The translations under genes were made by a program, and so were the position numbers. A stretch of 64,000 bases of DNA from Lophium mytilinum (Eukaryota; Ascomycota; Dothideomycetes; Mytilinidiales; Mytilinidiaceae): positions 2,448,215 to 2,512,214 of the forward strand of contig MU004181.1 of the NCBI GenBank assembly GCA_010093605.1. The letters are read 5' to 3'. Below the pieces are notes generated by a model. That model saw only the letters and a program-made list of their open reading frames with translations, searched no databases and was not told where the DNA came from. Shown here piece by piece: positions 20,752 through 62,829 of the stretch; position 1 is the first letter of the stretch, and each line of letters opens with the position of its first letter.

Positions 20752-23700
20752 TTACGACCCCATCCCACCCCCTTCATCCATCACATCTCCCGTCCCCACA
20801 TGCGGCCCACCAAACCCCCACGCATCGCCCGCGAAAACGCCGTCGTCGCCCAGCGTGGGCGGCTCCATATTGAACGGCATGAACCACGCCATGCTCTGGT
20901 CGGGAAAGAAGCCGTTCCCCATACCACCCGTATTCGGCATACCCCCGAGATCCAGGTTCCAGAGATCCGGGGCGGCCGAGCCCGCGAACGCGGAGAGATC
21001 GAGCGGAAGGAGCGAGTTGGTCGCCGTGGCGTGGTTCATGAGGCCGATGTTCTGGGCATGTGACTGCGGCGGTTGCGGCTGGCCCGGGATCTGGGCAAAG
21101 GGCGTGGGGAACGACGCGTTGGCGGGGTTGGAGGCGTAGTACGCCGGGTCGAAGTTCTCGACGACGTCGGGCTGGAGGCGCATTTGGTGGAGGTCTTGTG
21201 GCGGGTGTTGGAGGGGCGTGTGCTGGGAAGGTGAGAGCTGGGGTTGGAGCTGAGCGGTGGCGTCGATGGAAGGAAGGTCATCGGTCTTGGGTTTGGCTTG
21301 TTTCTTCTTTTTCGCCATCTTGCGCTGGTGTTCTGCCCGAGATGGTGGCGAGAGGCTTGCGAAGAACTCTTCGACGCTTTGTAGGTCGGATTTCTGGCCG
21401 AGGACGGCGTCAGTGCCCGGCTCTCTCTTGACCTTGGTAGCTGGGTCTTCGTAGTCGGTGTTGGAGACGCCGTGGGGATAGCGGTCAAACCAGTCGCCGT
21501 ATTGGAAGATCTGCTCCTGTCCTTTGCTGTTGCCTGCGGCAGGTCCCCGCAAGGCTGCATCGGCGTGCTGCCGATATAAGTCTTTCAAGTTCTCTGCAAT
21601 GTAATGAAACATGCCCCAGTACTTCTTCATTTTGGTCAGATACTTGACGTTACTAGCCAAGTATTTCTTCGATTGCTCTTCCAGTTGTGGGTTTTTGCTG
21701 AACACCCCTCGAATGTGAATAGTGCTTGAAAAGAAGGCCGAGTATCCCACAAATGGAGCGACGACGTTGTGGTCCATGGACGCGCTGATCACAATGGAAA
21801 CTTGTTCTGCGGCTTCTAAGGCATTACGCGCGGCTTCGGCGAGGAATTCCTGTGGTACTTCGTTCGGAGTATGGGCTCCAGAATCAGCCAAACGGGAGGT
21901 TCTACGCAATTTGGGAATGCTGTCCCCACTCGCGGTAGATGGGCGAGCGAACCGATTCAGGAAAAGAACGCTCTGGTAGTACAGGATATGCAGGTATAGC
22001 AGCTGGTTTGCAGATCCCTCAATGGCGTGGCTCTTGAGATTCTCCTCGTTATGATGCAGGGTTTCCGGTAACGTTTCCTTGAATTTCTGAAGTCGGCCCT
22101 TGATGCAATTGAAAGTAGATTCGGGATCCCATGTCGGTACCGTCTCCCTTTCTAGCCCGCCAAGATTTAGGTATTTGATCAGCTCGCCCCATATCGAAAC
22201 CAAGCGAATCAAATATGCCATGACTCCCATATTGGCCGTCGTGTCCGTCAGCTGCTCCGAATTTGACGTAGAAGCACCACCGTCCAGATCTTCAGTAGAC
22301 CCTGCGATTTCATCAATGTACAGTTGCTCTTTAACCGGCAACTGAACCTGGATGAACTGTTCATTAACGAACAGTGGGCGCTCTGTGCCAGAAGAGTTGA
22401 ATCGATCCATGAGGAAGCACGACCACATTGTTCTTCTTCTTATTTCTCGATCGATGAAGCTGAGCTTCTTCCTCTCTCCATTCTCGCCACCTAGTGGGTC
22501 GTAATCGAGGTCCCTATGAAGTTGCAAGGCATAGGCCATTCTCTGCGCCATACCTCCGAACATCCAGCTTCGGCCTCCTTGGCACGTTCCAAACTCATGT
22601 AGCCCGAGTAAGAGATACACTATCAGAATCGTAATATTGGGGGCGTCGTATCGTTTGAGGGCTATCTCGCGGGCTTTCGTGGCCCACTCTTCGCCTCGAA
22701 GAAATGCAGGCTCTGTCCGAAGCTGTGGATGGGTCGAGAATCTTGCGGAAATGGCACATATTGCCAGTGTTAAGACTGGAGGGACGTTCCCAGCAGCTAG
22801 CCTGCGCATAAAGCTGGGTTTGTGAAGAAGAGGGTAGCTCTGGCCGTATACGAAGTCAAAATAGACTTCGGCGAGATGTTCTTGCATCTCTTTTGATGGA
22901 AGGCTTTCCACTCCCTCGGTAAGTAGCTTGCCTTCCTCCGTAGTCCGTGCTTTTGATGTTGCCGTCGCATTCTCTTCAACTTGCTTGGAGGCACCCGATT
23001 TCGACCAGTCTTCCAGGTCATTCCCAAACGCTTCGTCCGCCGCCCGTTTCTTAGTAGCCGAAGGCTTCGGAACGGTGCCGGGGAGAGGTGGTTTGACGAC
23101 TGACCTCCCCATCGGTGGGACAGATCCGGCGTTTTCCTTTGGGATCAGCTTTATCACCCGATCTTCCATTCTTTTAAGTCGTTTGTCCAGCATGGCCATA
23201 TAGTCGGTCCTCGGCGCAGCTTTGCGGGTGGTAACTTTGTAGACGCAAGGTATGCGTGATCGCAAACAGTGTCTGCAAGCAGGCTTCTCTCCAGAGCATC
23301 TGATCTTCTTCCTCCGACAGGCGATGCAGGCTAAAGGAAGCCGTTTCCGCTCCTTGCCCGCTTTAGTCTTCATTTCGCTCCATGGCGGTGGCTCCAGATT
23401 GCCGTCCTTGTCCTTTATCGAGCCTTCGCCTCCGTCTCCGCTGACACTGCCATCAGCTCTAGTCCCCATCGAGTCGTTCATTGTCTCTCCTACTCCCATG
23501 ACGCTTAGCCCCAGACCACTCTCTGGACTTGTGTTTTGGTCCAAACCATCTCTTTGCTGACTGAAGTCTCCGATGGTGCTAGTGCTCAGTCGGTGCTGTA
23601 TGCCAGATGCAACAGAGCCTGGGCCTTCGCTGAAATTCGAGACAGGTGTACGGTGCTGGGTGAAGGAATGGCTCTTCGTCGCCGGGGATGGTATTTGGGC

Positions 23701-23940
23701 CCGGTCATAGGATGTACCGTAAGACTGGTAGTCGCGCGATCCGTTGGCGAAGGCCATATCAGAGTATGTTGGTACCAGGGCAGGGTTGGGAGGCATGGAG
23801 GGCGACTGCGAAGCCGGGTGCGCATTCTCCATGTGTTGATGCCGCATATTGGAGGCAACGTAGCTGTTCAGGCCTAGGGGATCTTCGGATGATTGGTCTG
23901 CGAGGCTGTTATCCGGCAAAGGATGTGAATAGTTCGCCAT
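20752..23940 (-). CDS. Zn(II)2Cys6 fungal transcription factor
   Basis: One uninterrupted frame of 1062 residues from an ATG at 23940, unusual among the intron-rich neighbours. A Ser/Pro/Gln-rich N-terminus of about 185 residues precedes the zinc cluster. Its six cysteines at 205, 208, 215, 222, 225 and 232 fit C-x2-C-x6-C-x6-C-x2-C-x6-C, with basic residues RRKKIR between. A short linker and a coiled-coil-like stretch (DYMAMLDKRLKRMEDRVIKL) follow. The middle holds the fungal-specific regulatory homology region (EVYFDFVYGQSYPLLHKPSF, then GRSWMFGGMAQRMAYALQLH and RRRTMWSCFLMDRF). The C-terminal 250 residues are Gln/Pro-rich, fitting an activation domain. It is nuclear by family. The target genes cannot be read from sequence. 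It is the regulator nearest to the peptide/UstYa pair, but its form looks like a widely conserved regulator rather than a cluster-specific one. Confidence 0.92.
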   Translation of the reverse strand: MANYSHPLPDNSLADQSSEDPLGLNSYVASNMRHQHMENAHPASQSPSMPPNPALVPTYSDMAFANGSRDYQSYGTSYDRAQIPSPATKSHSFTQHRTPVSNFSEGPGSVASGIQHRLSTSTIGDFSQQRDGLDQNTSPESGLGLSVMGVGETMNDSMGTRADGSVSGDGGEGSIKDKDGNLEPPPWSEMKTKAGKERKRLPLACIACRRKKIRCSGEKPACRHCLRSRIPCVYKVTTRKAAPRTDYMAMLDKRLKRMEDRVIKLIPKENAGSVPPMGRSVVKPPLPGTVPKPSATKKRAADEAFGNDLEDWSKSGASKQVEENATATSKARTTEEGKLLTEGVESLPSKEMQEHLAEVYFDFVYGQSYPLLHKPSFMRRLAAGNVPPVLTLAICAISARFSTHPQLRTEPAFLRGEEWATKAREIALKRYDAPNITILIVYLLLGLHEFGTCQGGRSWMFGGMAQRMAYALQLHRDLDYDPLGGENGERKKLSFIDREIRRRTMWSCFLMDRFNSSGTERPLFVNEQFIQVQLPVKEQLYIDEIAGSTEDLDGGASTSNSEQLTDTTANMGVMAYLIRLVSIWGELIKYLNLGGLERETVPTWDPESTFNCIKGRLQKFKETLPETLHHNEENLKSHAIEGSANQLLYLHILYYQSVLFLNRFARPSTASGDSIPKLRRTSRLADSGAHTPNEVPQEFLAEAARNALEAAEQVSIVISASMDHNVVAPFVGYSAFFSSTIHIRGVFSKNPQLEEQSKKYLASNVKYLTKMKKYWGMFHYIAENLKDLYRQHADAALRGPAAGNSKGQEQIFQYGDWFDRYPHGVSNTDYEDPATKVKREPGTDAVLGQKSDLQSVEEFFASLSPPSRAEHQRKMAKKKKQAKPKTDDLPSIDATAQLQPQLSPSQHTPLQHPPQDLHQMRLQPDVVENFDPAYYASNPANASFPTPFAQIPGQPQPPQSHAQNIGLMNHATATNSLLPLDLSAFAGSAAPDLWNLDLGGMPNTGGMGNGFFPDQSMAWFMPFNMEPPTLGDDGVFAGDAWGFGGPHVGTGDVMDEGGGMGS

Positions 23941-25800
23941 TGACGTCGCGGGTGAAGGAAGCGCTCACATCCCCACCAATGCTCAGGACAATTGTTAGTC
24001 AACACAAGGGTATAAGTATACGGGTGTTTGGTTGGGAGTGTAGCGTCGCGTAACTGCGCAGATCATGTCGGATGCTGCTCAGTTGCCAGCATCGCCGTCG
24101 ATCCGAGCGAAGGGTTTTCCTCCCGCAGTGGCGATGCGCGCGAGCTATACAGCCAAGCCAGCAACGAGTGATGAAAGCAACGTTGGTGTAATCGGCGGTC
24201 CGGAGCAGCCAATGCTTGTCCTGTTATCCGTGTGCCAGGAGGTGTCGAGGCTGAAGAGCGGTCAAGGGGGCGTTCGGACAAGAGGTCTGTTCGGTGAATG
24301 GCGAGGAGGGGCAGCGGGAGAGCTTCGAGGCCGGAAGCTGGCGCGATGGTGCAGGGCGGGTATAGGCAAGTGGACGAGCAGAGAATCGAGTGAATGGGCA
24401 AAGGGCGAGGTCGGTGTCGGGCGGGCGTGGCGGTGGCAGCGGTGGCATTGGACGCGCGCAGTGGTTTGGACGACACAAAGACCCGCCGAGGTTCTTCATT
24501 CTTAGGTGTGCGTAGCACTGTTCGCGGGCCTGCGTAGCGCTGTTCGACCGGCCAGAACTTGCACCACGGGCGCCGAATTAGTCAGGCCTGCCCCCGCAAG
24601 CTCGTCTCTACCCGCAGCAGCCATCGCGATGCCTGCACGCCCTGGTCGTCCAGGGCTTTGCCGCGTCAACGGCATGGCACAGAGAGCACCACATGCAGAT
24701 AGCTTGCGTGAAGGCAGCCACAGTCGCACCATCCACGTTCCCGCCCGAAGCCTCAAAGCGCCCCGCACTGCTTGGAACGTCGACGTCAGGCCCCGGAGAA
24801 CTCGCCAACACCAGTGCCTCGCAGACGCAGGCACTGCAGGCACAGCGTACAAATTCGCCGTGAGAACGCCGACACCTTCAGGCGTGCAATCTGATGAACA
24901 AATGACAGCGATGATCGTGTAATGTGCTAACCTGCGGCGCCATCCATCCCGCGTCGGCGACTATGGACGAAGCGCCTTCAGCCATTTCCCATTCAGCTTG
25001 AAGTCCGAAACGGCGTCCCAAGTCTGCAATGACGGTGCTCCATGCTATATGCCAGGGCCCTGGTCGCCCGGTGCGAACCCTATTCGCCTGCGGCCCGGCC
25101 ATGACTGCCTCCAATGCGGCCGACCGTTCGCGATCGCCAGAGTTTCATGAACAAGAGCTTGGGTTTCGTGATACGCACGACGTGGGGGCCGAAGCACGAT
25201 TAGATTATTAACATGGCAAAGGGATTGGAGATAAGTGCGTGCTCTTCTAGGGAATGACCCTGTTTTGGGCCTGGACGGACCATGTACACACTTCACGGTT
25301 GCGCCATTCGGTGGTCCCTGTACTGTGCGTGCATTGCAGTCTAGGCGAGTTTGGCCTTCTAGAGTTACGTGGAGTGCATGCATACTTGATGGCTGCGTCG
25401 CGAATGCATTTACACTGTGACACGTCATCATATGATAGCCTGCGAAGGAATCTACTGCCATGTAGCAGACAAACACTGATGAGTAACATTACAGACACCT
25501 CAAACGTTCAAGGAAACCAGGCTGAGGCTGCATAAGAATCAATTCGTCATTTAACCATATAAACTAGCCCGTTGCAACTGCATACTCATATATAAAAGAA
25601 CGACTAGAAGAACGCGCCCACATGTCTCAGCGCCACACCACTACACTACCACAATCAGTTCCCTGCTGCAGTCGTGTGTCTCGTATAACCCCCATTTGCG
25701 TGGTTGACCTGGTGGCAACACGTCAGCAGTGTTACTGTCTTCGCCAGTGGCCTTGCATATAAGCCTACCGCACCTGTATTACTCACGTCTTTGAGGCCTC
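23941..25800. other. long intergenic region upstream of the Zn2Cys6 gene
   Basis: About 1.86 kb with no convincing gene. Frames of 120-150 codons at 24063..24518 (both strands) and 24502..24922 overlap one another in a GC-rich stretch and look like leader and promoter sequence of the regulator. A TATATAAAAG string at 25589..25598 on the plus strand has no gene behind it; the plus-strand frame at 25704..26222 runs antisense to the repeat precursor. Confidence 0.45.
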
Positions 25801-26748
25801 TCAAGAGGCATTATTGCCTACGTTGGCAGCGGCGGCCTCTTCCGCATTCTTGTATGTCTTGTAATCCGAGTAATGAACGTAAGGTCCGTAGCTGCCGTAG
25901 TCCTCCTGAACATGACCATCGCCAGCTTCGTCCCGCTTCTGCTTTTGGGCAGCTTCTTCCGCTGCAGATCGATACGCTCCGTACGAAGCATACGGCCTGT
26001 AGCTGCCATAGTACCCGAATGTTGATTCAGTCTTGGCGTTGTCTGCATTGTTGCGCTTCTGGTTTTGGGCCGTCTCTTCTGCTACAGATCGGTACGCTCC
26101 GTATGAGGCATACGGTCTATAGCTGCCGTAGTAGCCGAATGTTGTTTCAGTTTCGCCCTTGTCTGCAACGTCGCGCTTCTGCTCTTGAGTGCCTGATTCC
26201 GTCTCTGATGCCTCAGTCATAGCAGCGGCCATGCTGCTGCGCTTCTCATTCTGCGCGGCACCATCCATAGCTTTCGAGTAGCTTCCATAATATGAGTATG
26301 GGCGATAAGTCCCGTAGACGCCAAACGTTGTTTCTGTCTTTTCAGTAGCCACATCACCGCGCTTCTTGCTCTGAACACCGTCTTTCGCTCCAGCTCGATA
26401 CGCTCCGTACGAGGCGTACGGCCTGTAGCTGCCGTAGTAGCCGAACGTTGCTTCAGTCTCGGCGTTGTCCGCATCGTTGCGCTTCTGGGCCTGTTGCGTG
26501 GTAGCGTCTTCCGCGGATGAGCTGTAATGATCATAAGACTTGTATATTGCATATGGTCGGTACCCAGTGTAAGTGCCATACGCAGTGAAGGTAGTCGCCT
26601 CTTCTGATCTGGGGATAATACTCCATGCTCGTGAATCAGCTTCCCTTTTCAATGGACTGATGAGACCCCCACTAGCAAGTGGAGCAGCAATGACGGCTGT
26701 CGAGGCACCAATCACCAAGGCGGCGATGAGATCTCGCGTGAGATGCAT
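25801..26748 (-). CDS. secreted Tyr-rich repeat precursor with Kex2 sites (candidate RiPP precursor)
   Basis: One exon, ATG at 26748, 315 residues. Residues 1-22 form a signal peptide (hydrophobic LIAALVIGASTAVIAA). Lys-Arg pairs at 34-35, 89-90, 129-130, 169-170, 191-192, 231-232 and 271-272 divide the rest into segments of 55, 40, 40, 22, 40, 40 and 43 residues. Six segments carry a Tyr-dense core. Three of these have the identical core FGYYGSYRPYASYGAYR (102-118, 204-220, 244-260); the others are variants. The fourth segment lacks any core. Each core is flanked by acidic and Ala/Gln-rich spacers ending in KR, the target of the Golgi protease Kex2/KexB. This layout is that of fungal dikaritin-type precursors and Kex2-processed repeat proteins. 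The divergent neighbour is a UstYa-type oxidase, which supports a modified cyclic peptide product. A purely structural secreted protein cannot be excluded. Confidence 0.85.
   Translation of the reverse strand: MHLTRDLIAALVIGASTAVIAAPLASGGLISPLKREADSRAWSIIPRSEEATTFTAYGTYTGYRPYAIYKSYDHYSSSAEDATTQQAQKRNDADNAETEATFGYYGSYRPYASYGAYRAGAKDGVQSKKRGDVATEKTETTFGVYGTYRPYSYYGSYSKAMDGAAQNEKRSSMAAAMTEASETESGTQEQKRDVADKGETETTFGYYGSYRPYASYGAYRSVAEETAQNQKRNNADNAKTESTFGYYGSYRPYASYGAYRSAAEEAAQKQKRDEAGDGHVQEDYGSYGPYVHYSDYKTYKNAEEAAAANVGNNAS
25933..26643 (-). repeat. in-gene tandem repeats of the peptide precursor
   Basis: Six KR-ended coding units: 26479..26643, 26359..26478, 26239..26358, 26173..26238 (short, no core), 26053..26172 and 25933..26052. 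Four are exactly 120 bp. A final unit at 25801..25932 has no terminal KR. Core-coding DNA is nearly identical between units 2, 5 and 6, pointing to recent duplication or gene conversion. Confidence 0.85.
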
Positions 26749-28525
26749 GACGAAAGTGGAGGAAGCTGAATTCTCTCAAACGATCTAAGAGATGAGGTAA
26801 GCGAAAGGCCAGAGACTCTGAGGAAGTAATCTGGGTTGGGAGAGCCAATATTTAAATGGAATACACATCTTGTAGTGATAGAATTCGATAGGGAAGTCGG
26901 CGATATGAGCACCGACACTACACAGGTATACAATTGATAACTCCATGATCCCACAGTGTCGTATGATGCTAATCGAGCAAAACTCAAATTGCAGCTCGCG
27001 GATTCTTTACCAGCTTCCAATGATTCCAGTGCTGTCCCACTGTTGAGTAACGCTTGGAGGCACCATCTAGCAATCAAAAGAGACAAAGTAATACCTCATA
27101 ATAGACCTGAGATTAGCACGGACGTGGTGAAGTCTGTAGACCGTATTGGATAAATGATTGTGATACTGAGCAAAGACTTGGAATATACGGGAAAGGGTCC
27201 GTGGCTATCCTAAGAACCCTTCTTTTTAACTGGCAAAGCACGACAGAGACGTCCAAATTCACGCCACGATAACCAACGTACTAGCGGGAAGACGTCCCAC
27301 GGAGCAATTGGCAAAATGCGGTGAAGATGCTGTGCCGCGGAAAATGGCCATGTGTTGAGCCCACAGGCAACGACAGGCGGATTAGGAAAGTGTCTGTCAA
27401 CCTATGGTCTAGAATCAAGATACTTGCTGCGAGAACCCGAGTGTCTGTAACGTGTTCCCCATCAGGATGGACGTGTAGTGCTTTTCTTTGTCGAGAAACA
27501 AAGCGGAAGGTTGATGAGGGGGTCCGGCTTAGAGGATCTTGATCGTACCAATCGGATTGGAGATTTTCCGGTCCGGTGGTAGAGCTAGCTTTGACACCTC
27601 CTTCTATGAACCAACCACAAATTCTGAGAGCTCCAAATGTAGCACTGTAAGTCCGTTAGTGGACTCCTGACATCGGGATCCCGCAGCCATGCACTTGCTG
27701 ATCCACAAAATCCCAGATGGCATCGCAAAACTCGGGAAGGCCGCGTGATCTTGTCTGCCTCCACTGCATCAGCTGGGACGGAGATCCCAGCGTGTCCGTG
27801 TACTACTACTGCTTGCAAGCGGCCGAACGTTGTCCCTGGCTTTTGTGGTTTTGAAGGTATATCGTAGGTATATCGAAGTACTGTTATTAATCAAGAAGTC
27901 AGACGTTTCGCAAAGCTTACGGTAAGGTCAAGGAGGTAAGGACCTTAGTGCGCAAACACAAACCCCCCATTCTTTGCCCCGTCCTGATTGCTAGGTACTT
28001 TCTCCTGGGTTCCGTGAGTCTAGTAACCAGTCAGTTAAGAGCGTCAAACATCTAGTTTAGATTTTGCTGTGACCAGACTGACATCCAAGGTATTGTTTTG
28101 GACAATCTATCAATGCACCACACGCAGTCATCAAGTAAACACAGGAATTGATGATCAGTCACTGCAGCTGGCAAGTTCTGCAAACTTTAGAGGATAAGAG
28201 CGTAAGGATTTGACTAGTTCGAAGTTTTGTACTATTGCACTCTTTGCTGAGTCTAGCAACGACAAACGTCAGCCCACGGAGATGGCGTTTCACACGGATG
28301 CTTGCAGGAGCGGTGAGAAAGTCATCAATTTCAATGAACTGGTGAATGACACTTGCGGTAATCTGTGCAATCGAACTGTTAGTCTTCTATACTTGCTTCG
28401 CTTTGTGCTCAAACATTGTTAGTAAAGCTCAGCAGATGCTTTATTCCTGTCTTTCCATTCATCCAACACAGCCCCACCCTTCACTTTCTATTTTGTTCTT
28501 GATACTCATGCAAGCTTCGACGTGA
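26749..28525. other. divergent intergenic region of the precursor/UstYa pair
   Basis: About 1.8 kb separating the starts of the precursor (minus) and the UstYa gene (plus). A CCAAT and a TTTAAATA string at about 26845..26857 lie 100 bp before the precursor ATG and may be its core promoter. No third gene is convincing: the open frames (26956..27153, 27321..27542, 28210..28422) are short and unlike any tailoring enzyme. Confidence 0.5.
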
Positions 28526-29599
28526 ATGTTCACCATGTTTGGTCCACTTGTAAGAAATTCTACCAAGTTCACACCAGTCTCTCAGGAAGAAGACCATGAG
28601 GCTCTACTACCGTGTCCTTCCTGTAGCGCCTCCTCTGAAATCAAACGATCACCTCGACCCCCCGGAACTTGGTACTTTTTGAAAACATACGCTCCTCTCG
28701 TCCTCTTGATATGTGTTTCGGGACTGTTTGGGGTATGGTTGGGCAACAACTGGGTTTTGAGACCCGACAGGTTTTGCATTCGGCACACTTCCCAGTATTG
28801 TATGACATACTGAATTTGACGTGGACCAAGAGTTAACATCCAAACATAGCCCCTATAGTCAAGGAAGTCGACCTTTACTATGAAACGGTTCGCTTCAACG
28901 GCTCTTTGCTGAAAGCCAATATTTTCAGGGGGCCTGCGAGCCCCGAGGTCGATGCAGCATGGGAGTCATTGGGGGTGAATTGTAGGTATCAAGGCAATGC
29001 TTTTGACAGTCAAGATCACTGAACCTATATTCAGACCGCGCCGTGGTAGTTCCAGTAGATCAAGCAACTCAGTCCGGCATCCGTCCGGATCAAGTGAAAG
29101 TCAGTCAGCGCTACGGGGGTGGATTTCCTGCCAATGTGGAAGGTTTGCATCACTTGCACTGCTTGGTGAGTTCTTCTTCAAATTGCTGGACTATTCGTAC
29201 TTGAGCCAATGTTAGTCATGTTTTCTAATCATTCCGATACAGAATCTCCTCCGTAAAGCGTTGACATGGAACTACGAATACTACCACAAGCAGGGCGAGG
29301 GACCGTTCACGAATTCAGACTACGTGATTCGGTATCACGTCACGCACTGTTTGGACGTTCTCCGTCAACAGCTCATGTGCACTGTCGACGTTGGCGTACT
29401 AGGGCAGATCTGGTATCATCCCGAAGGCTATCCAATGGAGCCGTTTGTTGACTTTCACACAAATCACAAATGCCGGAACTTTGAGGCAGTAAGAGCATGG
29501 GCGGAGAAGCATCAGTTGCCTCCCGAAGAGAATGTCGATATGCAGCATTTCTATGAATTGCCGAAAGAGGGAGACAGGATTGTTTCCGAGATTCCATGA
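28526..29599 (+). CDS. UstYa-family (DUF3328) oxidase
   Basis: Four exons, 28526..28799, 28850..28981, 29035..29165 and 29243..29599, with introns of 50, 53 and 77 bp; 297 residues. A cytosolic tail of about 50 residues precedes one membrane helix (about 55-74). The lumenal domain begins QYSPIVKEVDLYYETVRFNG, then FRGPASPEVDAAWESLGVNY. The two signature motifs are present: HHLHC at 174-178 within NVEGLHHLHCLNLLRK, and HVTHC at 211-215 within YHVTHCLDVLRQQLMC. UstYa proteins catalyse oxidative ring closure in ribosomal peptide pathways such as ustiloxin, probably through metal bound by these histidines. The nearest gene is the Tyr-rich Kex2-repeat precursor, divergently transcribed, so the likely substrate is that precursor. 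The family also occurs outside peptide clusters. Confidence 0.93.
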
Positions 29600-35944: not shown

Positions 35945-37148
35945 ATGTCTCCCTCCACAATCCGCACGAAGTCCCGCGTCTTCAAGATCGTCACCATACC
36001 CGGAGACGGCATCGGCGTCGACATCACAGAAGCCGCAGTTGCAGTTCTCCAGAAGCTCGCCGCGGTATCTGGGACCTTTGAGTTTGAGTTTACCGAGAAG
36101 GACTGGAGCAGCAAGAAGTATCAGGAAAGAGGCTACTACATGCCGGAGGACGGCCTGGATCAGCTGAAGAAGTTTGATGCCATCTACTTTGGGGCTGTTG
36201 GATGGCCTGGTAAGTGAAGAATCCAATCGTGTTGCTATTTGCACACGTATTGAATGGGGAAATGTGTGCAGTGTCAGGTACGAAGATTGCTGATTATGGC
36301 CGCGAATAGATGTACCCGATCATATTTCCCTCTGGGGCCTCATCCTTCCTATCCGAAATGCCCTCGGTCAATATGTAAACGTTCGTCCGACTCGCGTTCT
36401 ACGAGGCATAACATCGCCATTGAAGGACTGCGGCCCTGGCGATCTCGACTGGGTTATCGTCAGAGAGAACTCTGAGGGCGAATACGCTGGTCATGGAGGA
36501 ACCACGCATGGCGCATTTTCACACGCTATAGCCACCGAGGTTTCCATCTTCACACGTGTGGGTATCGAGAGGATATTCCGCTTCGCCTTCGAGACCGCCA
36601 GATCGCGGCCCAGGAAGAAGTTGACAATGGTGACGAAGAGCAATGCACAAAGACACGGCATGGTGCTCTGGGACAAGATCTTTACCGAGATAACCAAGGA
36701 GTATCCAGATGTTGAGACCGACAAGATGCTTGTCGACGCAATGACCGTAAGGATGACCTTGCATCCCAAAACACTTGACACGATTGTTGCAACCAACCTG
36801 CATGCCGACATCCTCTCTGATCTTGCAGCTGCGTTGTCTGGTAGCATTGGTATTGCGCCGTCGAGTAACCTGGATCCCACGAGGGAGTTCCCTAGTATGT
36901 TCGAGCCGATTCACGGCTCGGCGCCGGATATCGCGGGGAAGGGTATCGCGAACCCAATCGGCGCATTTTGGAGTGCGGCAGAGATGGTAAGATGGCTAGG
37001 GTTCACCGAAGCTGCAGATGGATTAATGGCGGCCATTGAGAATGTGACGGAAGCTGAAATTAAGACAAAAGATCTGGCAGGCGCGAGCGACACGAAAACC
37101 GTGACAGAGGCCGTGTGCAAGGAGATCGAAAAAGTTTTGCAGAAGTAG
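35945..37148 (+). CDS. tartrate/isopropylmalate-type decarboxylating dehydrogenase
   Basis: Two exons, 35945..36209 and 36310..37148, with a 100-bp intron; 367 residues. The junction restores GAVGWPDVPDHISLWGLILP, the substrate-loop region of tartrate dehydrogenase/decarboxylase and close relatives. Other motifs: IVTIPGDGIGVDITE (N-terminal nucleotide region), VRENSEGEYAG, the catalytic Lys-Asp region KSNAQRHGMVLWDKIF and VDAMTVRMTLHPKTLD, NLHADILSDLAAALSGSIG, and [20 protein letters not shown]. The enzyme oxidises and decarboxylates a 2-hydroxy acid (tartrate, malate or similar) with NAD and a divalent metal. The DHISLWG signature argues for the tartrate group over leucine biosynthesis. Its 3' end overlaps the opposing Imp2 frame. 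Confidence 0.9.
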
Positions 37149-37818
37149 AACTCCGTGTATATAGAACGGGCGTAGCACTCACCATGCCCTCTAAATCTTC
37201 ATAGTCTTTTGGCAAACGTGAAGTCCCAGGTATGACTCTCGTGTCTCCCTTCCGAGCCTTCTTCACGGGGATATCTTCTGGAAAGATGAGATTCCTCATG
37301 ATATAGAGAGCTTTCCCATCTACCATGGCTTTTGAAATTGGTCCAAAGTCGTTGCTATCCCTGCTTGCCGTCCAGTTGTCGCCCTCGACCCAAATGTGAT
37401 TATGCGGCACTACGATCTTCACACTCCCGTCTGGACCCTTCACAACCCCATCATACATCCCACTACCCCCAGTATAGTTCTTGCGTAGTCCATATCCCCC
37501 GTATCCCCCCTTGGTTGCCGTAGCTCTGTCCCGGGGTATCACAGTATCGCCTTCCAAAGCTATAATCCTCTTGATGGAGATTTCTTCTGGGTTATGTGGC
37601 TTCCAAAATGTTACAATATCGCCTCGCTTTAAGTTCTGGCGAGGAAAGCTGCGCGAGAGCAACACACGGTCGTGAATGCCGGCGCTTTTCGACTTTGGGG
37701 AGAGAGTAGGCGTCATGCTCTCGCCTTTGACGGCGGTAGTACTGAGATAATTGTCTGTGAATAGGTAGAAGACCGAGCCTGCGACGCCCATGCGGTAGAT
37801 AGTCTTCCAGTAGGACAT
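37060..37818 (-). CDS. IMP2: mitochondrial inner membrane protease subunit 2
   Basis: Single frame from an ATG at 37818, 252 residues. An N-terminal membrane helix (MGVAGSVFYLFTDNYL) is followed by the signal-peptidase I catalytic blocks. The serine is Ser34 in VKGESMTPTLSP; the lysine is Lys83 in SIKRIIALEGD, preceded by the NPEEI segment seen in Imp2. Box E is HIWVEGDNWTASRDSNDFGPI. Imp2 cleaves sorting signals from proteins in the intermembrane space, acting with Imp1. The last 40 residues (from about 213) are low in conservation and are read from DNA that also encodes the end of the convergent dehydrogenase gene, an 89-bp overlap. A GTGAGT at the position of Val214 could be a splice donor giving a shorter end; the C-terminus is therefore uncertain. 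Confidence 0.88.
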   Translation of the reverse strand: MSYWKTIYRMGVAGSVFYLFTDNYLSTTAVKGESMTPTLSPKSKSAGIHDRVLLSRSFPRQNLKRGDIVTFWKPHNPEEISIKRIIALEGDTVIPRDRATATKGGYGGYGLRKNYTGGSGMYDGVVKGPDGSVKIVVPHNHIWVEGDNWTASRDSNDFGPISKAMVDGKALYIMRNLIFPEDIPVKKARKGDTRVIPGTSRLPKDYEDLEGMVSATPVLYTRSSTSAKLFRSPCTRPLSRFSCRSRLPDLLS

Positions 37819-38245
37819 ACTGACGTGAAGCAGCTCTGGTGGCTGTCAATAATCTGTGAAATGGGCAAGAGGTAGCTTTGCGTGCTCCGAGGTCTGAGCT
37901 CTTGGATCCAGGGTCTCGAAAATTTGCGTTATGTAATCAAATACTCACTTGACGCATTCTTCAGCTCATTTGATGGCAACTGATTCTCGTCTAGAACAGT
38001 CTTCTCCATACATTGGAAGATGATAGTGTGAAGCAGTATTCAAGAAATCGTGGAGAGACCATTGATTTCAGCATCGTCACCAAAGCACCCGAGATATCGA
38101 GTATTTTCTTCTAAAAAGTACTGTCACATTGCAGGGTGTATAATACAGCATCTACATGAGCCTACATATGCACATCGCACCTAACCGCAGCCCCGCTGGC
38201 GCAATACAATGAAAATGCAAGGAATCGCACCCTAAAAAGACAAAT
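37819..38245. other. spacer between Imp2 and IDH2 genes
   Basis: Holds the promoter of the Imp2 gene and the 3' end of the IDH2 gene. Nothing else recognised. Confidence 0.5.
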
Positions 38246-40340: not shown

Positions 40341-43300
40341 ATGGCGGCTACGGAGGCCAAGCTGCAGAACTACTACAACATCTCAACCCTCTACCCCTCG
40401 GAATGGCCAGCGGAGAAGGACGTGAGCTCCGACGATGATGAGGACTTGCCCAAGACATCCACTAGCAACCCCGTTCGCCGGTCAAAATCGCGCTACTCTG
40501 TGCTGGAACGCAGTGGAAGCTATAGGAGAACTCTACCAGGAGCGGAGAAGACGCGCGATGGGCTCGAGAACCTCGTGCAGAAAGATGAATCCGATCCCCT
40601 CGGCGCATTCCCGAGTGTGGTCCAGGTGCTCCGCCAGCGAGGGCTGCCGGTAGAGGATGATACCAAAATGAGTAGGTTGAGAACACTGAGTACAATTAAG
40701 AAAATTAGCTGATTATTGCAGGAAACCGCTTCCTCCTGTCCTCCACGACCTTCTCCCCCGCCCTCTTTCTCTCACAGGTCCACAATGACGACTCCACCGA
40801 TCAGCTCCTGCGGGGCCTTGACTTCCTCTCGCGATCCATTGAGAAGAAATCAGCGTCCCTCAAGGTACTCGTCGAATCGAACTTCGAGCGTTTTGTGCGC
40901 GCCAAAGCCACCATCGACAACGTATACAACGAGATGCGCGAGCAAGGTGCCGCAGAGCCTGAATCCCCCAAACGACCGCACTCTCGCCATACTAGCAAGT
41001 CAGCCAGTCATGGCAGGAGCACCAGTGGCCCTCTGAGCCCCAACTTAGGTTCTAACAAACCGTTACCGAGTGATAAGAAGAAGAACGCGCTGGTGAAGGA
41101 GAGTGAATATGGTGTTGCGGGTATCAAGGCACCCTTGCTAGAAGTGGCAGTCAAAGCTGAGGAGGTCTGGGGACCTGCCCTTGGTGGAAGGGACAAAGAG
41201 GAGACTCTGAAGGCCATATTGAGCTCCATGGAGAGAAATCGAGCCCTCTTCGAGATTGGAGCTTCACTTCAGGACGCAATCAAGCGCAAGGACCATGAAA
41301 CGATCGTTGAAGACTATACACGAGCACGAAAATATGCAGACGATGCAAGGTCTATGGTCGAAAGTGCCAATTACCATCGGAAGCCTCTCGCAGACGACCA
41401 AGTTCACCAGATCATCGTCACCGCTCGCATGTGGGCAGATGTCGATGGTCAGATAGATTCCTTCAAGCGCGATGCATGGCGCACCCTGACTGGCATGCAC
41501 TTTAACAAGCAGCAAGCAATGGCGGAAGACAAGCCCGAGGCATACATGGAGCTCATTTCCATTATGCTGGAGTTGGGTGTAGAAGAGAACCCCATCTGGT
41601 TTTGGCTTCTCAGCAGGTACGACTTCCTCAAAAACAAGATCGCAGCGACCTGCGAACGGTCAAAAGTCGAGATTGAGATTCTACGTCGCCATCTCGGCAA
41701 TGGCGAGAAGCCTACATTGAGCATGCTCGCCTTGCATCTTCGCTCCGTCGGCTCGCAAGGCCGATCTGGAGACCCTGGGAAGATGGACTCGGCCAAGGTT
41801 TTGGAATTCTGGGAGCATGTGCTTGGCTCTATGAATACCCTTCTCTCTACACAAGGTGGAGTTCTTGGTGAGGTTGTAGAGTACTGGGATACTGCAAGGT
41901 CCTTCATCGATGGCAAAGCACAAAAAAATCTCCCGATCGGTATAGACGGTAGTAGCCGCCAGCATCATCGCCTCTCCACAGACGGTGTTCGAGAGTTGGA
42001 GAAGGGGGTCATCGAGCTGATCAACGTGATCCGCGAGCATATCTTCTCATTCTTCTCCGACCCTCCTATCGACGATATATCTCTGCTATTTTCTCCACTA
42101 CCCACAACCCCTCTTACTCCGAAAACACCAATGTCTGCTGCTCTCACGCCTCTCAATGACTCCCGATTCCGCTTCGACCCCAACAGCGCCCCTCCACCAT
42201 CTCCTTCGCGTGGCGAATCCTGGGAGAAATATGCCTTCTGGCCACCCTACTCTAACGCCCTCAGCGGCGTCCACTATCTCGCCAAAATTCTTGTTCTCAT
42301 TGGCGCCGCTGCGAGCGAAATGGCATCACTACGATTGCCCGAGCGCAGTGAAACGGGAATGCGCATGACGGAACTACTCAAGTCTCTCGTTGGAGGGGTG
42401 CGGGAACGTTGTGTGTCAGCTGTTTGTGTCGCTTGGGACCTCGACGCCGACAAGGTCAAGGTTCTAGAGGATTGGACGCGCTCGTCGGAACGGCGGGACT
42501 CTACAAATCTGCCATCGAGGTTTATGGCGCTACAAAACGCTCTGCTAGGCAATCTGCAGAAGATTTTGTATGTCAGCGATGCGATGAGCAAGCCTGGCTC
42601 GACGGATGTCGTAGTGCCGCCGTCTGCGAAATTGTTGCAGATGGTGCGGAGTCAGTTTGTCACCAGCTTGTACAAGGCCCTTTCTGGAATGGTTGAGAAT
42701 GCCGAAAAAGGGAGGGTGTTGGTTGATGATGACTGGGACGACGTGGCGGACGAGCTCACAGTACCAGCACAGAAGGCGGTTGAGGACTCGAGTTTGAGTG
42801 GCATTGATGCCAGCAATCAGGTATGTCTTCTCAATTTTATACCTCATGTACCGCTCTCATTAGCGTCGTGTCCATTTCCTGCAAGTACTACTTCTGCTGT
42901 ACTTCATGTAATTCATGTACCCTAATCATAGCATGTCATATATACCACCGTTTTCCCAACCAAGAGAAACTATGCTAACGAACAAACTCAGTCTATCCGT
43001 CTCCTCCTGACCCTCTCCACTCTCGCACACCTTAGCATGGACCAGATCCCTAACCTAATCTCCATTTTCGAATCGACCTTCTCCGTCGCCCTTACGGATG
43101 AAACGACCGCCATTCGCGACTCGCTTGCCAAAATCGACGCCCACCTATTCAAATCATATACGAAGCCGATCGCCGACCGCCTCGCAGCTACGATCACCAC
43201 CGGCATCCAATCCCCCAATTGGGCGCCCACCGTGTCCCGCGGCTCCGACCGCAGCCCCTCTCCTTACGTCTACGAAGTTCTTCTTGACTTGGTTATTGTG

Positions 43301-43891: not shown

Positions 43892-45322
43892 CTAGGAAGC
43901 CCACCTTGACTTCCTCAGACCGTCCGCCTTAGCGAAAATCGCCCCGGCGACCCCTTTCGCGTCTTCGGTCCAGAAGTTATTCGAGTCTTGCTTTAGTTCA
44001 TCATTCTTTGGGGGTTCATGGTCATCATGACTATCGACGTCGACCTTCCCCTGGGCATGAGAGTTGCTTGCTTCGGCCGCGTCGCCGTTAGGTAATTCGG
44101 TGAACGAGTTCAGCTCTTTTAATGGTGTGACAGCGGCCGAATCGGCCCAGTGGCCGTTTGACTCTGCAACTATGTCGTCTGAAGAGCTCTTGGTCTCTGC
44201 AAACTCGTGTAAGGGCGACAGCGGGGGATGCAAGAAGGCACTCTGTGATATACCTTTGCTTTCCGCTGTCGACTCGAGACCGGAATTGAAAGTGTTAGCT
44301 ACCGTTGATACGGCAGATGGAACACTATAATCATCCTGAGTCTCAGCAATAGGAGGAACTATTGCAGTCTCAGGAGTTGGATGAGACGTAGGTGCATCCT
44401 TCACGTCCATCGAAGCCTGGAGGTCACTATGCGACCTGCGGCTCATGATGCCTAGACCCGGCACCGAAACCCCGACTCTAGCCCAGTCCCATATCCTTCG
44501 GCGGGGCGGGCTGGCGTCGACCGAGGCTGCGGACGGGGATCCTAGATTGTCGTCTTGACTCCTGTCGTCTTTTCTGGATGTGGAGCTGGAAATTACGGAT
44601 TCGGATTTGAAGGGCTTTGAGTTGTCAACGGAGCCCTTATCGCGTGTTGCCTTGTCGCTCTTACCACTGTCGGACGTCTTGCTGGTCTTGCCGGCCTCGG
44701 GCGACACAGCCTTGCTACTCTTGCTAGCAAGACTGCTACGACTGGCCTGGCGGCGAAGTGCGCCTTCGTAGCTTTGGCGGAGCCCGTTTTGGGCTGTCGA
44801 CGGGAGTGGTGGGGGTGGGAGCAGCAGGGGGGCTGGCTCCTCGACCTCCTCCTGCACCTCCTCCACCATTGCCTCCTCCAGTCCCAGCCCCACTGCTTTT
44901 CCGCCGGATGCCGACTTTGCTCTCGTTCGGAACTTCTCCCGAGCTTCCTGTGGGCTTGAGCCGAGCGGTGCTGCTGTCGCCGTCTCGGTGCTCGTCGAGA
45001 CCGTTGACGAGGCGCGGCGGAGAGGGCCGCCGGGATAGGCGCCGGGTCGGCGAGGGGGACGCGGCTGGGGAGTTTGCGGTGCGGAATGTGTAGTCGGAGG
45101 ACTTTGAGCCATCGGAGGACTTTGAGCCATCGGAGGACTTTGAGCCGTCGGAGGAGGCACGGGAGGTGGAGGGTCGGCCATCGGCAGCGCTTGACGCGGC
45201 GACGTGATGTTTGCCGTTGGAGTTGAAGTGTGTGATACCGTTGGAATGGCCGGCGCCGATACCGTTTGAGCGGGCGGAGCGGGCTTGTGGACGCGGCGGC
45301 GGTGCGAGGAAGCCTTGTACAC
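43892..45322 (-). CDS. intrinsically disordered hypothetical protein
   Basis: Open frame of 476 codons ending at 43892. Its upstream limit at 45322 is a GTG, not an ATG; the first in-frame ATG is at 45181. DNA at 45323-45324 reads as an AG acceptor on the minus strand, and an upstream ATG near 45426 opens a short frame (MPSRLFWDEVE), so an upstream exon joined by a short intron is likely. I cannot place that donor securely. Composition is Ser/Pro/Ala-rich with a short tandem run of AQSPPM units, an acidic EVQEEVEEP stretch, a long Ser/Lys region, and a possibly folded patch RRRIWDWARVGVSVPGLGIM. The tail FWTEDAKGVAGAIFAKADGL is also better defined. No family recognised. Confidence 0.6.
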   Translation of the reverse strand: MYKASSHRRRVHKPAPPAQTVSAPAIPTVSHTSTPTANITSPRQALPMADPPPPVPPPTAQSPPMAQSPPMAQSPPTTHSAPQTPQPRPPRRPGAYPGGPLRRASSTVSTSTETATAAPLGSSPQEAREKFRTRAKSASGGKAVGLGLEEAMVEEVQEEVEEPAPLLLPPPPLPSTAQNGLRQSYEGALRRQASRSSLASKSSKAVSPEAGKTSKTSDSGKSDKATRDKGSVDNSKPFKSESVISSSTSRKDDRSQDDNLGSPSAASVDASPPRRRIWDWARVGVSVPGLGIMSRRSHSDLQASMDVKDAPTSHPTPETAIVPPIAETQDDYSVPSAVSTVANTFNSGLESTAESKGISQSAFLHPPLSPLHEFAETKSSSDDIVAESNGHWADSAAVTPLKELNSFTELPNGDAAEASNSHAQGKVDVDSHDDHEPPKNDELKQDSNNFWTEDAKGVAGAIFAKADGLRKSRWAS

Positions 45323-45474
45323 TGTGGTGTTAATTCTTGTTATCGTTCTGCTTTGTGAGGACGAAGCGTGGTGTGGATGAAGCGTGATGGGTGCTCGACT
45401 TCGTCCCAGAAGAGACGGGACGGCATGAGCGAGGCACTGTGAAGTGGGATAGGGCGGATTGGGACAGATGCCGC

Positions 45475-46497
45475 TTATTTACCTTGCTTTGCTCTCCCTT
45501 TGCCCTTTATGTGACAGTTTGGCCCCGCGTCGTGGTCGTGATAGGTGCAGTCATCGCGAGCCTCAGTTGGGTCCTCGAACAGCATACCTCCCGTGCCCGA
45601 CCGGATGGCGTTGACCATATCAACTGCGAAATCAGGAGCCCCATCGAAGCAGGCTCGATAGGACTCGGCGTCCTTCTCACTCGCCGGGTCCATGATCTGG
45701 CGCGCAGCAATCTTGGTCATCAACCGTCGAAAGGGCGACCCGGGACTGCTCTTACGATATATCTCGTTGATCTCGTCGGCGTCCGGCACCAGCTCTGCCT
45801 CGCTGAGCCCCTTGCGGTATTGGTCCATCGCAATGTTCTTTAGCTGCGGCATGTCGAAGCGTTCGCAGAGCAGGTACAGCTTGTGGCAGCACACTGCGTA
45901 GTCGTACATGCGATTCGGATCTGCCATGTCGGAGACATCGTCGAGTTTGCCTTGATACAGCCATTTTACTAGCAGTTCGAAGCCCGATGGATCGTCCTCT
46001 AGTAGCTCAAGCTTGTCTGGTGTCTTCTTTTTCGTGTCGTTCGATGGTAGGAGCTCGGCAGCCAGCTGCTCGGAGTGGTGACAGAGGAGGTTGCGGTGGA
46101 GGGCCCAGTGACGCTTGGAGGGCCCAACGTAGATGTCTACGAGCGGGCCGGAGAGGAGCCTGGCACGCTGCGATTTAGCTTTGGCTTGTACGTGGAGACG
46201 GTGCGAGTGGATGCGATGCGCCAGAATGGGTCGCGGCATGAGCGGATTGGGCTCAGAGTAGGGTTGCGAGGGCCCATCAGGCAGCGCATCGCTCTCCGAC
46301 TCTGAGCCCGACTCTGCGCTTGATTCTGGCTCTGGCGCGTCCATCTTTGGCACGTCCGCATGCGTGGAGAGTGGTTCATTCACGTACTCGGCAAAGGTGG
46401 TCGCGGGCGCATCGCCGATGTTGGTCGCCATACGAAATCGGGGGGAGTTGAAGGCAAAGTCACGGACGAAGACGATGCGCTCCTGCCAGTGACCCAT
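45475..46497 (-). CDS. BTB/POZ domain protein
   Basis: Single exon of 340 residues from an ATG at 46497. A polar, acidic N-terminal region of about 110 residues precedes the BTB fold: LLSGPLVDIYVGPSKRHWAL, HRNLLCHHSEQLAAELLPS, LELLEDDPSGFELLVKWLYQ, and AVCCHKLYLLCERFDMPQLK. That is the usual order of interaction strands and helices in ascomycete BTB proteins, some of which are Cul3 adaptors. The C-terminus carries a helical region and a His/Cys/Asp-rich tail (DDCTYHDHDAGPNCHIKGKG) that could bind metal. Function unknown. Confidence 0.85.
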   Translation of the reverse strand: MGHWQERIVFVRDFAFNSPRFRMATNIGDAPATTFAEYVNEPLSTHADVPKMDAPEPESSAESGSESESDALPDGPSQPYSEPNPLMPRPILAHRIHSHRLHVQAKAKSQRARLLSGPLVDIYVGPSKRHWALHRNLLCHHSEQLAAELLPSNDTKKKTPDKLELLEDDPSGFELLVKWLYQGKLDDVSDMADPNRMYDYAVCCHKLYLLCERFDMPQLKNIAMDQYRKGLSEAELVPDADEINEIYRKSSPGSPFRRLMTKIAARQIMDPASEKDAESYRACFDGAPDFAVDMVNAIRSGTGGMLFEDPTEARDDCTYHDHDAGPNCHIKGKGRAKQGK

Positions 46498-58698: not shown

Positions 58699-60891
58699 CT
58701 ATCCCAATCGAACATCGACCTCTTCCGTCGGAGCAGAGTCCCAGTAATCTTGAAAGACACGGCCGAGTGCAACACGATATGCGACGCCGTCTTCCCACTC
58801 GATCCACATGATGTTATAGAACTTATAGGGTGGATCCTTCTTTTTCGATTTACACTTCTTAGGAGAATCCTCGCAGTGGGGGGGACAGTTCTCATGAAGC
58901 AGCTTCATCTCGGGGAATAATGATGCAATTTCCCATGAAGAGGAGAACGCTCCCAATTCTACTTTCCCAGCACTGATAGAAATCCATTCACAAGATTGAC
59001 CAATGGGAACGCCAGCTTGCTCCGATAGAGACGGCATTGTTCCCACTATCTTTCCACTAGAACACTTGAGGTACCATGCGTCAACGCCATCAATCTTTTC
59101 TCCGATAAACAGACGAAGCCTCTGGGCGCGACAGAAAATGATCGGACTCCAACTATCCTCTTCTGGCGGAAGAGACAATAAATCGATTGGAACAGGGGGA
59201 CGAGGCATACCATTTCCGAGGAGATTTGATTCCAGACGTCGTTTTCCCGAATGGTAGCAGGAGTTACATGTCTCGACTTGCTTAAAATCTATTGGAACCA
59301 GGGTTCCGGAAGATGCTCGCGATTTGTACCATTTGACCGTCGGCTGGATATCTAGAAGAGGTCTATCATCTAGGCTAACATTACGCTGGTGAGGATATAC
59401 GCAGCGCCAAGGGAAGGTATCAATAGGGCCGGACCAGCCTGCCCACGACCAGCTCGGAAGTGTACGCAGCGTTGACCCTGTCGCATCTTTCTTCCGCTCG
59501 TGGAGCTCCTCGGGTTTCCATAGCAGCATAACATCAAAAGCAATTTAAAGTAGTCCATAAAAAATTCCGCCCTTCATGGACTTGCTCGCAATAGTCGTAA
59601 TTGCTCCAAAAGCGTCTAAAGTATCTTCAGGATAACTTAGCTGCCGTTTGCTGTAATCCTTCACTAACGAAGCATATGACAAAATATTTAGCCGGTGTGT
59701 GTTGGGACGCAACGGGACGTCGGACGGCGTGGCCATGTTTTCAGTGCTAAACATTTTTTCGCAGGTCCAATTGACAGTACCGTGCACGAAGTCTAATTTC
59801 CTTCGAGAGATAATTTCTTCCTGGAATGTCCACGCGCGTGTGTCATATTTGTATGTTTGATTTACCGGATCAACCGTTGTTATCAGTTGGCAGTCTGGTC
59901 CAAAGTCGAAGAATCGAAAAGGGCTTTTTCGCGGCGTATTTGTTGCAATTCCTCGTAGGCCAAATTCATCATCACTCCCGTCTCGAGCTACTATCGTCAA
60001 GTATGCGTTGGCGTATACGGATGCCATCGACTTCAACATTTTGGGCTTGTGCTTTAGGTCATCCTGCACAATGCAGAACCTATCCACCCACAGTTTCTTT
60101 CCCAGCAATCCGGCCAAAACCATGCTGTCTTGGATAGTTTTTGGCAACCGACATTTATTCGCTGGAATGTCGAAGGCACCATCTTGGCAGAGTGCATTGA
60201 AGTTGTACATATCTGTTTGGAACGGTGCCAGGAGGTCACCCCAAACATAGCTCAAAGCCACGTATTGGTCCATCTCTTGGCCGCGCACCAAGCACCGGCG
60301 CGTGACACCGATCAAGTACAGCTGTTCTGGTCGTTGGAAAGTCCACCATGGATCGGTAATAGAGTGACAAACGCCGCTGTGGCTTTCATCACAGAATTTT
60401 GCCCACTCTTTCACTCTCTTCACGTCAATCCAATCTCGGTCGAGGCAGTCAAATGCAACACCGACCACCGAGTGTTCCTTATGAGGGCCGACAGGCGTTA
60501 AGTCTAACTATCGAAAGTTAACCATGTTACATTATCAGTATGAGTGAGGCAACTATACGCTGACAATATTAACATACAGCTTCCACCTGTACCGGACGAA
60601 CCAAATATTGACATAGCGAGAGTCTCCGGAGACTTGTTTCTGGAGACACTGCACGACGTTCAGACAAGTTGGACAGTTTGTCTGATTGCGAAACTCTGCA
60701 AGGGACGCGATCCAATGGTGAATTTTGTGGGGATGAACAATACGAGCTATTCGCGGTTGGGGTTTGAAAATCCGAGCTATTTTCGTACAATTCGGGCATG
60801 GACGCTTTCGCTCGGGGTTTGAAAGACTCACTGACCGCGCGAAAGCTTTTAGTCCTCGAAGCCTAGTACCAGTCGTCTCGAGTTCCGACAT
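58699..60891 (-). pseudogene. HET-domain (heterokaryon incompatibility) gene with an in-frame stop
   Basis: Minus strand, exon 1 60559..60891 and exon 2 58699..60507, joined by a 51-bp intron (GTATAG...GATAG, branch GGTTAAC); 714 codons including stops. Exon 1 encodes the Cys-rich start (CPNCTKIARIF, then NCPTCLNVVQCL). Exon 2 has the HET core: YVALSYVWGD, LPKTIQDSMVLAGLLGKKLW, VDRFCIVQDD, MASVYANAYLTIVARDG, and RAWTFQEEIISRRKL. The frame is interrupted once by TAA at 59545..59547, between GGIFYGLL and IAFDVMLLWKP. It then stays open for 282 more codons, with good HET-type sequence (TLPSWSWAGWSG). So the gene looks recently inactivated, or makes a shortened protein that still holds the HET core. 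HET proteins trigger cell death after fusion of unlike strains. Confidence 0.85.
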
Positions 60892-61779: not shown

Positions 61780-62829
61780 CTATGGTTTGCTCTCCAATGC
61801 TCCTGTCTTCGACGTTGCTTCATTCGCTGTCTCGTTGACTTCCTTAGAGGCAGGTGCTACCTCCGCGGCGGAATCGGTAGACACCTTCTGTTTTTTGGGC
61901 TCTGGTTCTCCCTCCTCCACAGGCTCGGTGGTGGGAGCGTCTGGCAGCTTTGACGCTAAGTCAGTCTCCTCTGTCGTCTTCTCGGTATCTTCCTCCTTCT
62001 CTTCCGGTACGACTGGGGGAAACACAAGACTGTTCTGGTGTTAGCAGTGCGCATTAAGTAACAACGCGACTCTGAAGACTCACGGGATATTGGCAAAGTA
62101 AGCCTTCTCATCCTTCTCCATGAAGTTGCAGAAGATGATGCGCTCCAAACTATCCCCCTTGCCCTCGTCCAAGAACTTCCGTACTGTAGCTAGGGCAACC
62201 TCACTTGCTTCTCCACTCGGATAGCCGTAGATGCCTGTGCTTAGCGCGCTGAACGCGATACTCTTCAAGTCGTTTTCCACCGCGAGCTCCAAGCTACGCC
62301 AATAGCATCCCGCCAGCAGCTCCTCAGCAGCTCCTTCCTTCTTCGAAGCCCAATATCGCGGCCCTACGGCGTGAATCACCTTCTTCGCTGGTAGCTCGTA
62401 GCCGTCTGTAATTTTGGCATAGCCGGTCGGGCAGCCGTCGAGAGTCTCACACTCGTCCAGGAGGTCAGGCCCGGCGGCGCGGTGGATTGCGCCATCAACA
62501 CCGCCACCACCCATCAACGATTCGTTGGCGGCGTTGACGATGGAGTCGATTGCGAGTAGCGTGATATCATGGCGAATGACGGAGATTTTGTCGTTGAAGG
62601 TAGCAGAAGGCGCTGGAAGCTCTGCACTATCGACTTCGGGGTCCGCGGCGAGCTTCTTGAGCTTGTAGAGAAGGGACAGGGTGGGGATTTCGGAGAGGGG
62701 GAGGGGTTCGGGGCCCTCCATGGTGCGGTAGAAGACGCGGTAGCTTTGCGTGAGGGATCGAGGACGGAGGAATGAAGCTCTGTAGAAGATACGCAAGCTT
62801 GAGTTTAAGAACAAACAAGTTGGTCGCAT
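61780..62829 (-). CDS. macrodomain protein (ADP-ribose hydrolase type)
   Basis: Two exons on the minus strand, 62084..62829 and 61780..62029, with a 54-bp intron; 331 residues. The macrodomain spans about 80-250: ISVIRHDITLLAIDSIVNAA, then ANESLMGGGGVDGAIHRAAG (107-120, phosphate loop), GCPTGYAKITDGYELPAKKV, IHAVGPRYW, and FSALSTGIYGYPSGEASEVA (second loop). The NAANESLMGGGGVDGAIH pattern is that of the MacroD group, which removes mono-ADP-ribose from acidic residues and hydrolyses O-acetyl-ADP-ribose. The ATG at 62829 adds 36 residues before an internal Met37; this extension is Arg-rich and acid-free, like a mitochondrial presequence. Exon 2 encodes only an acidic, Lys-containing disordered tail. 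Confidence 0.92.

Follow-up and report, generated by a model that had tools for sequence, protein, structure and literature searches.

A candidate two-gene dikaritin-type locus in Lophium mytilinum with a period-three tyrosine ladder in its precursor

A 64,000-nucleotide stretch of the Lophium mytilinum (Dothideomycetes) genome (contig MU004181.1, positions 2,448,215 to 2,512,214; hereafter the window) contains a Kex2-processed repeat precursor gene (25801..26748, minus strand; a single open frame of 315 amino acids with its ATG at 26748) next to a UstYa/DUF3328 gene (28526..29599, plus strand). The two genes are divergent, as a preliminary description of this DNA had proposed, with start codons at 26748 and 28526, 1.8 kb apart. 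The longest stop-to-stop frames of the 1,777 bases between them (26749..28525) were inspected by eye, and none was gene-like. The locus appears to consist of two genes.

The precursor contains 37 Tyr and no Cys, its content of Tyr, Gly and Ala is high, and it has no Pfam match. Its N terminus is hydrophobic and, read by eye, signal-peptide-like; seven Lys-Arg (KR) sites follow, with spacings of 55, 40, 40, 22, 40 and 40 residues. The signal-like N terminus, the seven sites and the mostly 40-residue spacing of the preliminary description are thus borne out, with four of the six intervals at exactly 40. Cleavage at KR is predicted to yield a 35-residue signal piece, six pieces of the lengths just given and a 43-residue tail. 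The 22-residue unit, which had escaped the preliminary description, is without a core. All six of the Tyr-dense cores described there are present. On the minus strand, and in the order of the protein, these are the first core YGTYTGYRPYAIYKSYDHY (26524..26580, seven Tyr), a core copy YGSYRPYASYGAY in unit 91–130 (26398..26436), the variant core YGTYRPYSYYGSY in unit 131–170 (26278..26316), further copies of YGSYRPYASYGAY in units 193–232 (26092..26130) and 233–272 (25972..26010), and the last core YGSYGPYVHYSDYKTY (25852..25899, six Tyr). The exact core FGYYGSYRPYASYGAYR is present three times, and it is indeed longer than the cores of the class that were compared, which have four residues in ustiloxin and phomopsin, six in asperipin-2a and nine in the epichloecyclins. 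The five Tyr-core units between KR sites are 40–55 amino acids long, four of them exactly 40, and by these lengths, rather than by the published scoring script, they agree with the published repeat criterion for Kex2-processed repeat precursors (KEPs): at least three tandem repeats, each of at least 8 amino acids and none above 100, between dibasic sites.

In all six cores the tyrosines stand at a strict period of three, (Y-x-x)5–7, a regularity that is new relative to the preliminary description. The runs comprise 7, 5, 5, 5, 5 and 6 tyrosines, 33 of the 37 in the protein, and the tracks alone span 13–19 residues. The cores hold 27 i,i+3 Tyr pairs; in 20,000 within-core shuffles the mean was 11.0 and the maximum 20, so that none reached 27. 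At the DNA level, a five-Tyr period-three pattern has nine matches in the window, all within the precursor gene, and none in 100 shuffles. An origin of the ladder in the DNA itself was rejected, as the only tandem repeat has a period of 120 bases and none has a period of 9. No track lacks an x-P-Y step, and 4–6 residues past the final Tyr of each comes an acidic residue, in many cases amid alanines; by our reading, this applies to all six tracks of the precursor and to all seven tracks of its relatives.

The three 17-residue cores that are identical in protein differ from one another at 5, 4 and 7 of 17 codons, pair by pair, and all of these differences are silent, with no replacement. In the corresponding flanks, 14, 12 and 10 of 25 residues are changed (Fisher P = 0.0059, 0.0090 and 0.0007 for core versus flank in each pair, the pairs not being independent). 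Silent-only changes in the core beside changed residues in the flank indicate that it is the core peptide, and not a DNA repeat, that is kept in these three copies.

Three proteins were recognized as relatives of the precursor. A single-protein search gave one significant match, from Pyrenochaeta (P0001; E = 2.3e-5, 27% identity over 56%), and a profile search added proteins of Cucurbitaria berberidis (P0122; 4.2e-13) and of a metagenome (P0123; 8.8e-11). The profile had four rows, two of them artificial rearrangements, and was scored against the 8,000 candidates sharing most words. The relatives carry Tyr tracks of 6, 6 and 5 (P0001), 5 and 5 (P0122) and 6 and 6 (P0123), and the i,i+3 excess of each was reached in 0 of 20,000 shuffles; because they were found through core similarity, their tracks are not fully independent evidence. 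The Lophium mytilinum genome holds no paralogue of the precursor besides the gene itself, and neither search returned a Lophium protein for the precursor among its matches, which suggests that the gene is unannotated. A 132-residue protein from an ENA source (P0124) was rejected as a relative, with a profile E of 6.7 and no x-P-Y step, as were 39 pattern matches on viral contigs, none of them related to the precursor. P0124, another protein rich in Tyr and with KR sites, carries two (Yxx)6 tracks, YGKYGNYGKYGSYGSY, and is possibly a parallel case.

The neighbouring gene was modelled with four exons (28526–28799, 28850–28981, 29035–29165 and 29243–29599) encoding 297 amino acids, a model chosen from 24 frame-open splice combinations by agreement with the public Lophium mytilinum protein BU16DRAFT_554922; the latter is 100% identical and has 294 amino acids, starting at the second Met. 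The product matches PF11807 with E = 6.6e-55 (186.8 bits against a cut-off of 25; profile positions 16–220 of 220), contains both HHLHC and HVTHC, and has a hydrophobic stretch at about residues 50–75 that we took, by eye, as a membrane anchor. These features identify the adjoining membrane-anchored protein of the preliminary description as a UstYa. His171, His174, Cys175, His208, His211 and Cys212 are invariant in 48 of 48 aligned sequences, namely this UstYa and 47 relatives picked from the 120 listed. A search returned 566 matches at E ≤ 1e-10, the best 120 of which were listed; by their names, the relatives among the matches listed presumably come from several Pezizomycotina classes. In a tree of these best 120 of 566, the protein groups with a Glonium sequence and two others. 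Against the other UstYa places of its own genome it shows one near-full-length match of 27% identity, partial matches of 24–38% and a 16-residue piece of 56%. The UstYa profile had no match among solved structures at E ≤ 1.

UstYa genes and KR-separated repeats also occur together elsewhere in this genome. Twenty-four exon matches to PF11807 were grouped into 12 places, and the window and 9.9–14.5 kb around each of the other 11 places were scanned for repeats. KR-separated repeats lay near a UstYa at five of the 12, clearly at the precursor locus (C1) and at places C2, C10 and C12 and weakly at C13, and no KEP-like repeats were seen at the other seven. Four of the five repeat genes diverge from a UstYa, and the gaps are about 1.1–1.8 kb. 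At C10 (L031 6614–7162), units EDALEFAGASYSHLYKEAKDAEVAKR are divergent from a UstYa match about 1.2 kb away; at C2 (L032 3161–3583), Trp-bearing units AEEASEDLAFWQSGDWKR share a strand with a UstYa match about 1.1 kb away; at C12 (L035 7049–7513), near-identical 32-residue units sit amid three UstYa matches, as in a larger dikaritin cluster; and at C13 (L034 6487–6780), a weak frame with VEGGGQWKR-like motifs, kept as weak because two of three repeat scans flagged it, is divergent to a UstYa match. The cores at these four places are unrelated to that of the precursor. Some UstYa matches at C18, C7, C4 and C2 contain in-frame stops, as introns or decayed genes would. Several flagged frames were dropped: L028 705–1391 (Arg/His/Pro-rich, one scan only), L029 1459–1752 and window frame 44739–45329 (both of low complexity), alternative frames in L031 and L035 that cover the same DNA, and, as low-scoring repeats, window frames 40709–42922, 43895–45478 and 20755–23964.

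Five random control stretches of 9.9 kb (the first five of 40 drawn) contained no KEP-like repeats, but five of 12 against none of five is a small comparison and proves little by itself. A published average carries more weight. Here and below, published systems are described from passages of PMC7329392, PMC6339444, PMC6514808, PMC11253845, PMC12186524, PMC12048977, PMC9233826, PMC10512285, PMC9632046 and PMC7099791. From this average, 5.25 KEPs per Ascomycota strain, arithmetic predicts about 0.015 chance KEPs in 12 × 10 kb of a 43.2-Mb genome, a figure to be read with the difference between our repeat detector and the published one in mind, as ours may be looser. In a published survey a DUF3328 gene is among the 15 nearest genes for 1,758 of 7,878 KEPs (22%; Ascomycota 30.1%), most often in the next position, and repeats contain Tyr in 65.6% of cases with a DUF3328 neighbour versus 38.2% without; nine KEP/DUF3328 clusters are reported for Venturia inaequalis. 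The pairing of KEP and UstYa is therefore already known from published surveys, and what is new is the tyrosine ladder.

These observations suggest that the two genes probably form a dikaritin-type locus for a ribosomally synthesized and post-translationally modified peptide (RiPP), with a logic closest to that of asperipin-2a and with i,i+3 ethers between tyrosines as the most likely modification. The dikaritin-type reading of the preliminary description holds in gene anatomy, pairing and family assignment, with the same pairing at other UstYa genes of the genome, whereas the cyclization or cross-linking that it added is a step that we infer. In the scheme that we propose, the precursor would enter the secretory pathway by way of its N terminus, and the membrane-anchored UstYa, probably a dicopper enzyme, would oxidize, in the lumen, tyrosines within the (Y-x-x)n cores; UstY enzymes are reported to have a dicopper site in vitro (PMC12186524). 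Kex2 would cleave after each KR, and exopeptidases would trim the ends. The modification most likely links a Tyr, through its phenol oxygen, to the β-carbon of the Tyr three residues earlier. By arithmetic, such a link closes a 17-membered ring, and one over i,i+2 would close a 14-membered ring. The i,i+3 spacing, which equals that of known 17-membered rings, recurs four to six times in a row in each core, and successive Tyr-to-Tyr ethers are predicted on this basis; one enzyme acting repeatedly might thus form one or several 17-membered rings per core. A full ladder, in which a single UstYa would install four to six linked 17-membered rings and so make a rigid polycyclic rod that exceeds in size the mono- and bicyclic cross-linked fungal RiPPs compared, is a tentative extension to which we give only about one chance in four in favour. 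The linear peptides have calculated [M+H]+ values of 2040.924 for FGYYGSYRPYASYGAYR, 1884.823 for FGYYGSYRPYASYGAY and 4199.897 for unit 233–272 without its KR, and each ring is expected to change the mass by −2.016. The likeliest role of the product would be that of a defensive or competitive secreted peptide. Among the literature matches listed, there was no match for core-typical sequence strings and no title or abstract account of such a track, although an earlier listing is possible.

Several points weigh against this proposal. The chief one, directed at an exclusive partnership of enzyme and precursor, is that the UstYa clade is broad and old, far wider than the precursor family found, so that the enzyme may have other substrates. 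Only three significant relatives of the precursor were found, from Pyrenochaeta, Cucurbitaria and one metagenome; gene predictors may miss such precursors elsewhere too, however, and rarity in protein databases says little. The cores are not uniform: compared with the common core, the variant core has 6 of 17 residues changed and the first core 9–10 of 17. In both, the Tyr tracks are intact, so that the positions between tyrosines can vary freely. The 1.8 kb between the start codons makes a compact shared promoter unlikely. Finally, no tyrosinase, methyltransferase, S41 peptidase, cytochrome P450 or transporter was found in the 30 frames that, besides the precursor and UstYa, were scanned against Pfam out of the window's 65 stop-to-stop frames with 150 residues or more; 15 of the 30 match nothing, and genes with short exons could be missed. 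No isoflavone-reductase gene was seen among the scanned open reading frames either. With one UstYa only, and no tyrosinase, methyltransferase, transporter or S41 peptidase in the frames scanned, the locus lies outside the older broad definition of dikaritin clusters (tyrosinase, methyltransferase, several DUF3328 genes, transporter or peptidase). Several genes of that definition are also missing from asperipin-2a as described.

As to the surroundings, frames 3′ of the UstYa gene match Sen15, a glycolipid-transfer protein and GH76, and an S26 signal-peptidase-like frame lies at 37063–37845. On its other side, the precursor adjoins a 1,070-residue Zn2Cys6/Fungal_trans transcription-factor frame (20755–23964, minus strand). 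Near the right end of the window are a HET-domain frame (59548–60507, minus strand) and a macro-domain frame (62083–62871, minus strand).

The breadth of the UstYa clade also fits a different view of the locus, in which the cores are released linear and unmodified and act or self-assemble outside the cell as the Rep1 repellents do, the UstYa having another substrate and being a neighbour by history. Of the 7,878 KEPs surveyed, 6,120 lack a DUF3328 gene within their 15 nearest genes. Rep1 and Hum3 of Ustilago maydis are, like the precursor, Kex2-cut repetitive secreted proteins; unlike the product proposed here, they give linear peptides, and the passage cited mentions no oxidase pairing. Gly/Ser-Tyr repeats could also stack. 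Nevertheless, other places in this genome show unrelated repeat precursors adjacent to a UstYa, and the Tyr period seems stricter than self-assembly would require; unmodified release is an unlikely explanation. Slightly less probable again is that the UstYa does act on the cores but in another way than by i,i+3 Tyr ethers, for example by dehydrogenating or hydroxylating them or by forming a bond with a different residue. In published accounts, the desaturation of amino acids in phomopsins requires UstYa homologues, and hydroxylation and chlorination in the cyclochlorotine pathway are ascribed to DUF3328 proteins; what is conserved here, however, is the spacing of the tyrosines, which the oxidation of single residues would not need. 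A structural wall or matrix protein, hardened through dityrosine by peroxidase or laccase and with incidental KR sites, would fit the repeats and the high Tyr, Gly and Ala content, but is very improbable given the seven KR sites with four of six intervals at exactly 40 residues, the lack of a Pfam match, the adjoining UstYa, and titles and abstracts on Tyr-rich Kex2 dityrosine proteins that yielded no such fungal protein.

The precursor itself suggests the chemistry, through a strict Tyr track that has the spacing of known 17-membered rings and is kept under silent drift of the DNA. If the i,i+3 ethers are indeed formed, a UstYa can act repeatedly along one track, and a run of at least five Y-x-x units that includes an x-P-Y step would be a simple search signature for more such peptides. 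According to a 2022 review, only five dikaritins have been reported, although KEP/UstYa pairs are common.

The ustiloxins and phomopsins share with the Lophium locus a signal peptide, putative in the latter, KR-separated repeats and nearby UstYa-type oxidases, but are described with four-residue YxIx-type cores, a Tyr-Ile link and larger clusters that include a tyrosinase. The epichloecyclins (GigA) and victorin likewise derive from Kex2-type multi-core precursors and are counted as dikaritins; the former, however, are nonapeptides with a Tyr-Ile link, and the latter is chlorinated and has its ring closure between Phe and Leu. Precedent for the predicted bond comes from plant burpitides, in which copper-dependent formation of ethers between Tyr oxygen and a β-carbon gives 14- and 17-membered rings. 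Arabipeptin A (core FLWGY) has a Tyr-Leu link in a 17-membered ring, which is the i,i+3 spacing (PMC12186524), and selanine A (core VLFYPSY) is a Leu-Tyr-Tyr di-ether whose macrocycle structure asperipin-2a is said to resemble. Their cyclases, however, are BURP-domain proteins, a different enzyme family (PMC12186524), and, as described, form one or two rings. The closest system is asperipin-2a of Aspergillus flavus (aprA/aprY), whose core FYYTGY is made bicyclic through ethers between Tyr side chains and β-carbons and for which the single UstYa homologue AprY is essential (PMC6514808). Like the Lophium locus, it combines a multi-core Kex2 precursor, one UstYa homologue and a Tyr-rich aromatic core, with no tyrosinase among its four genes as described; its core, however, has six residues and two rings, whereas the Lophium tracks extend over 13–19 residues with 5–7 Tyr at period three.

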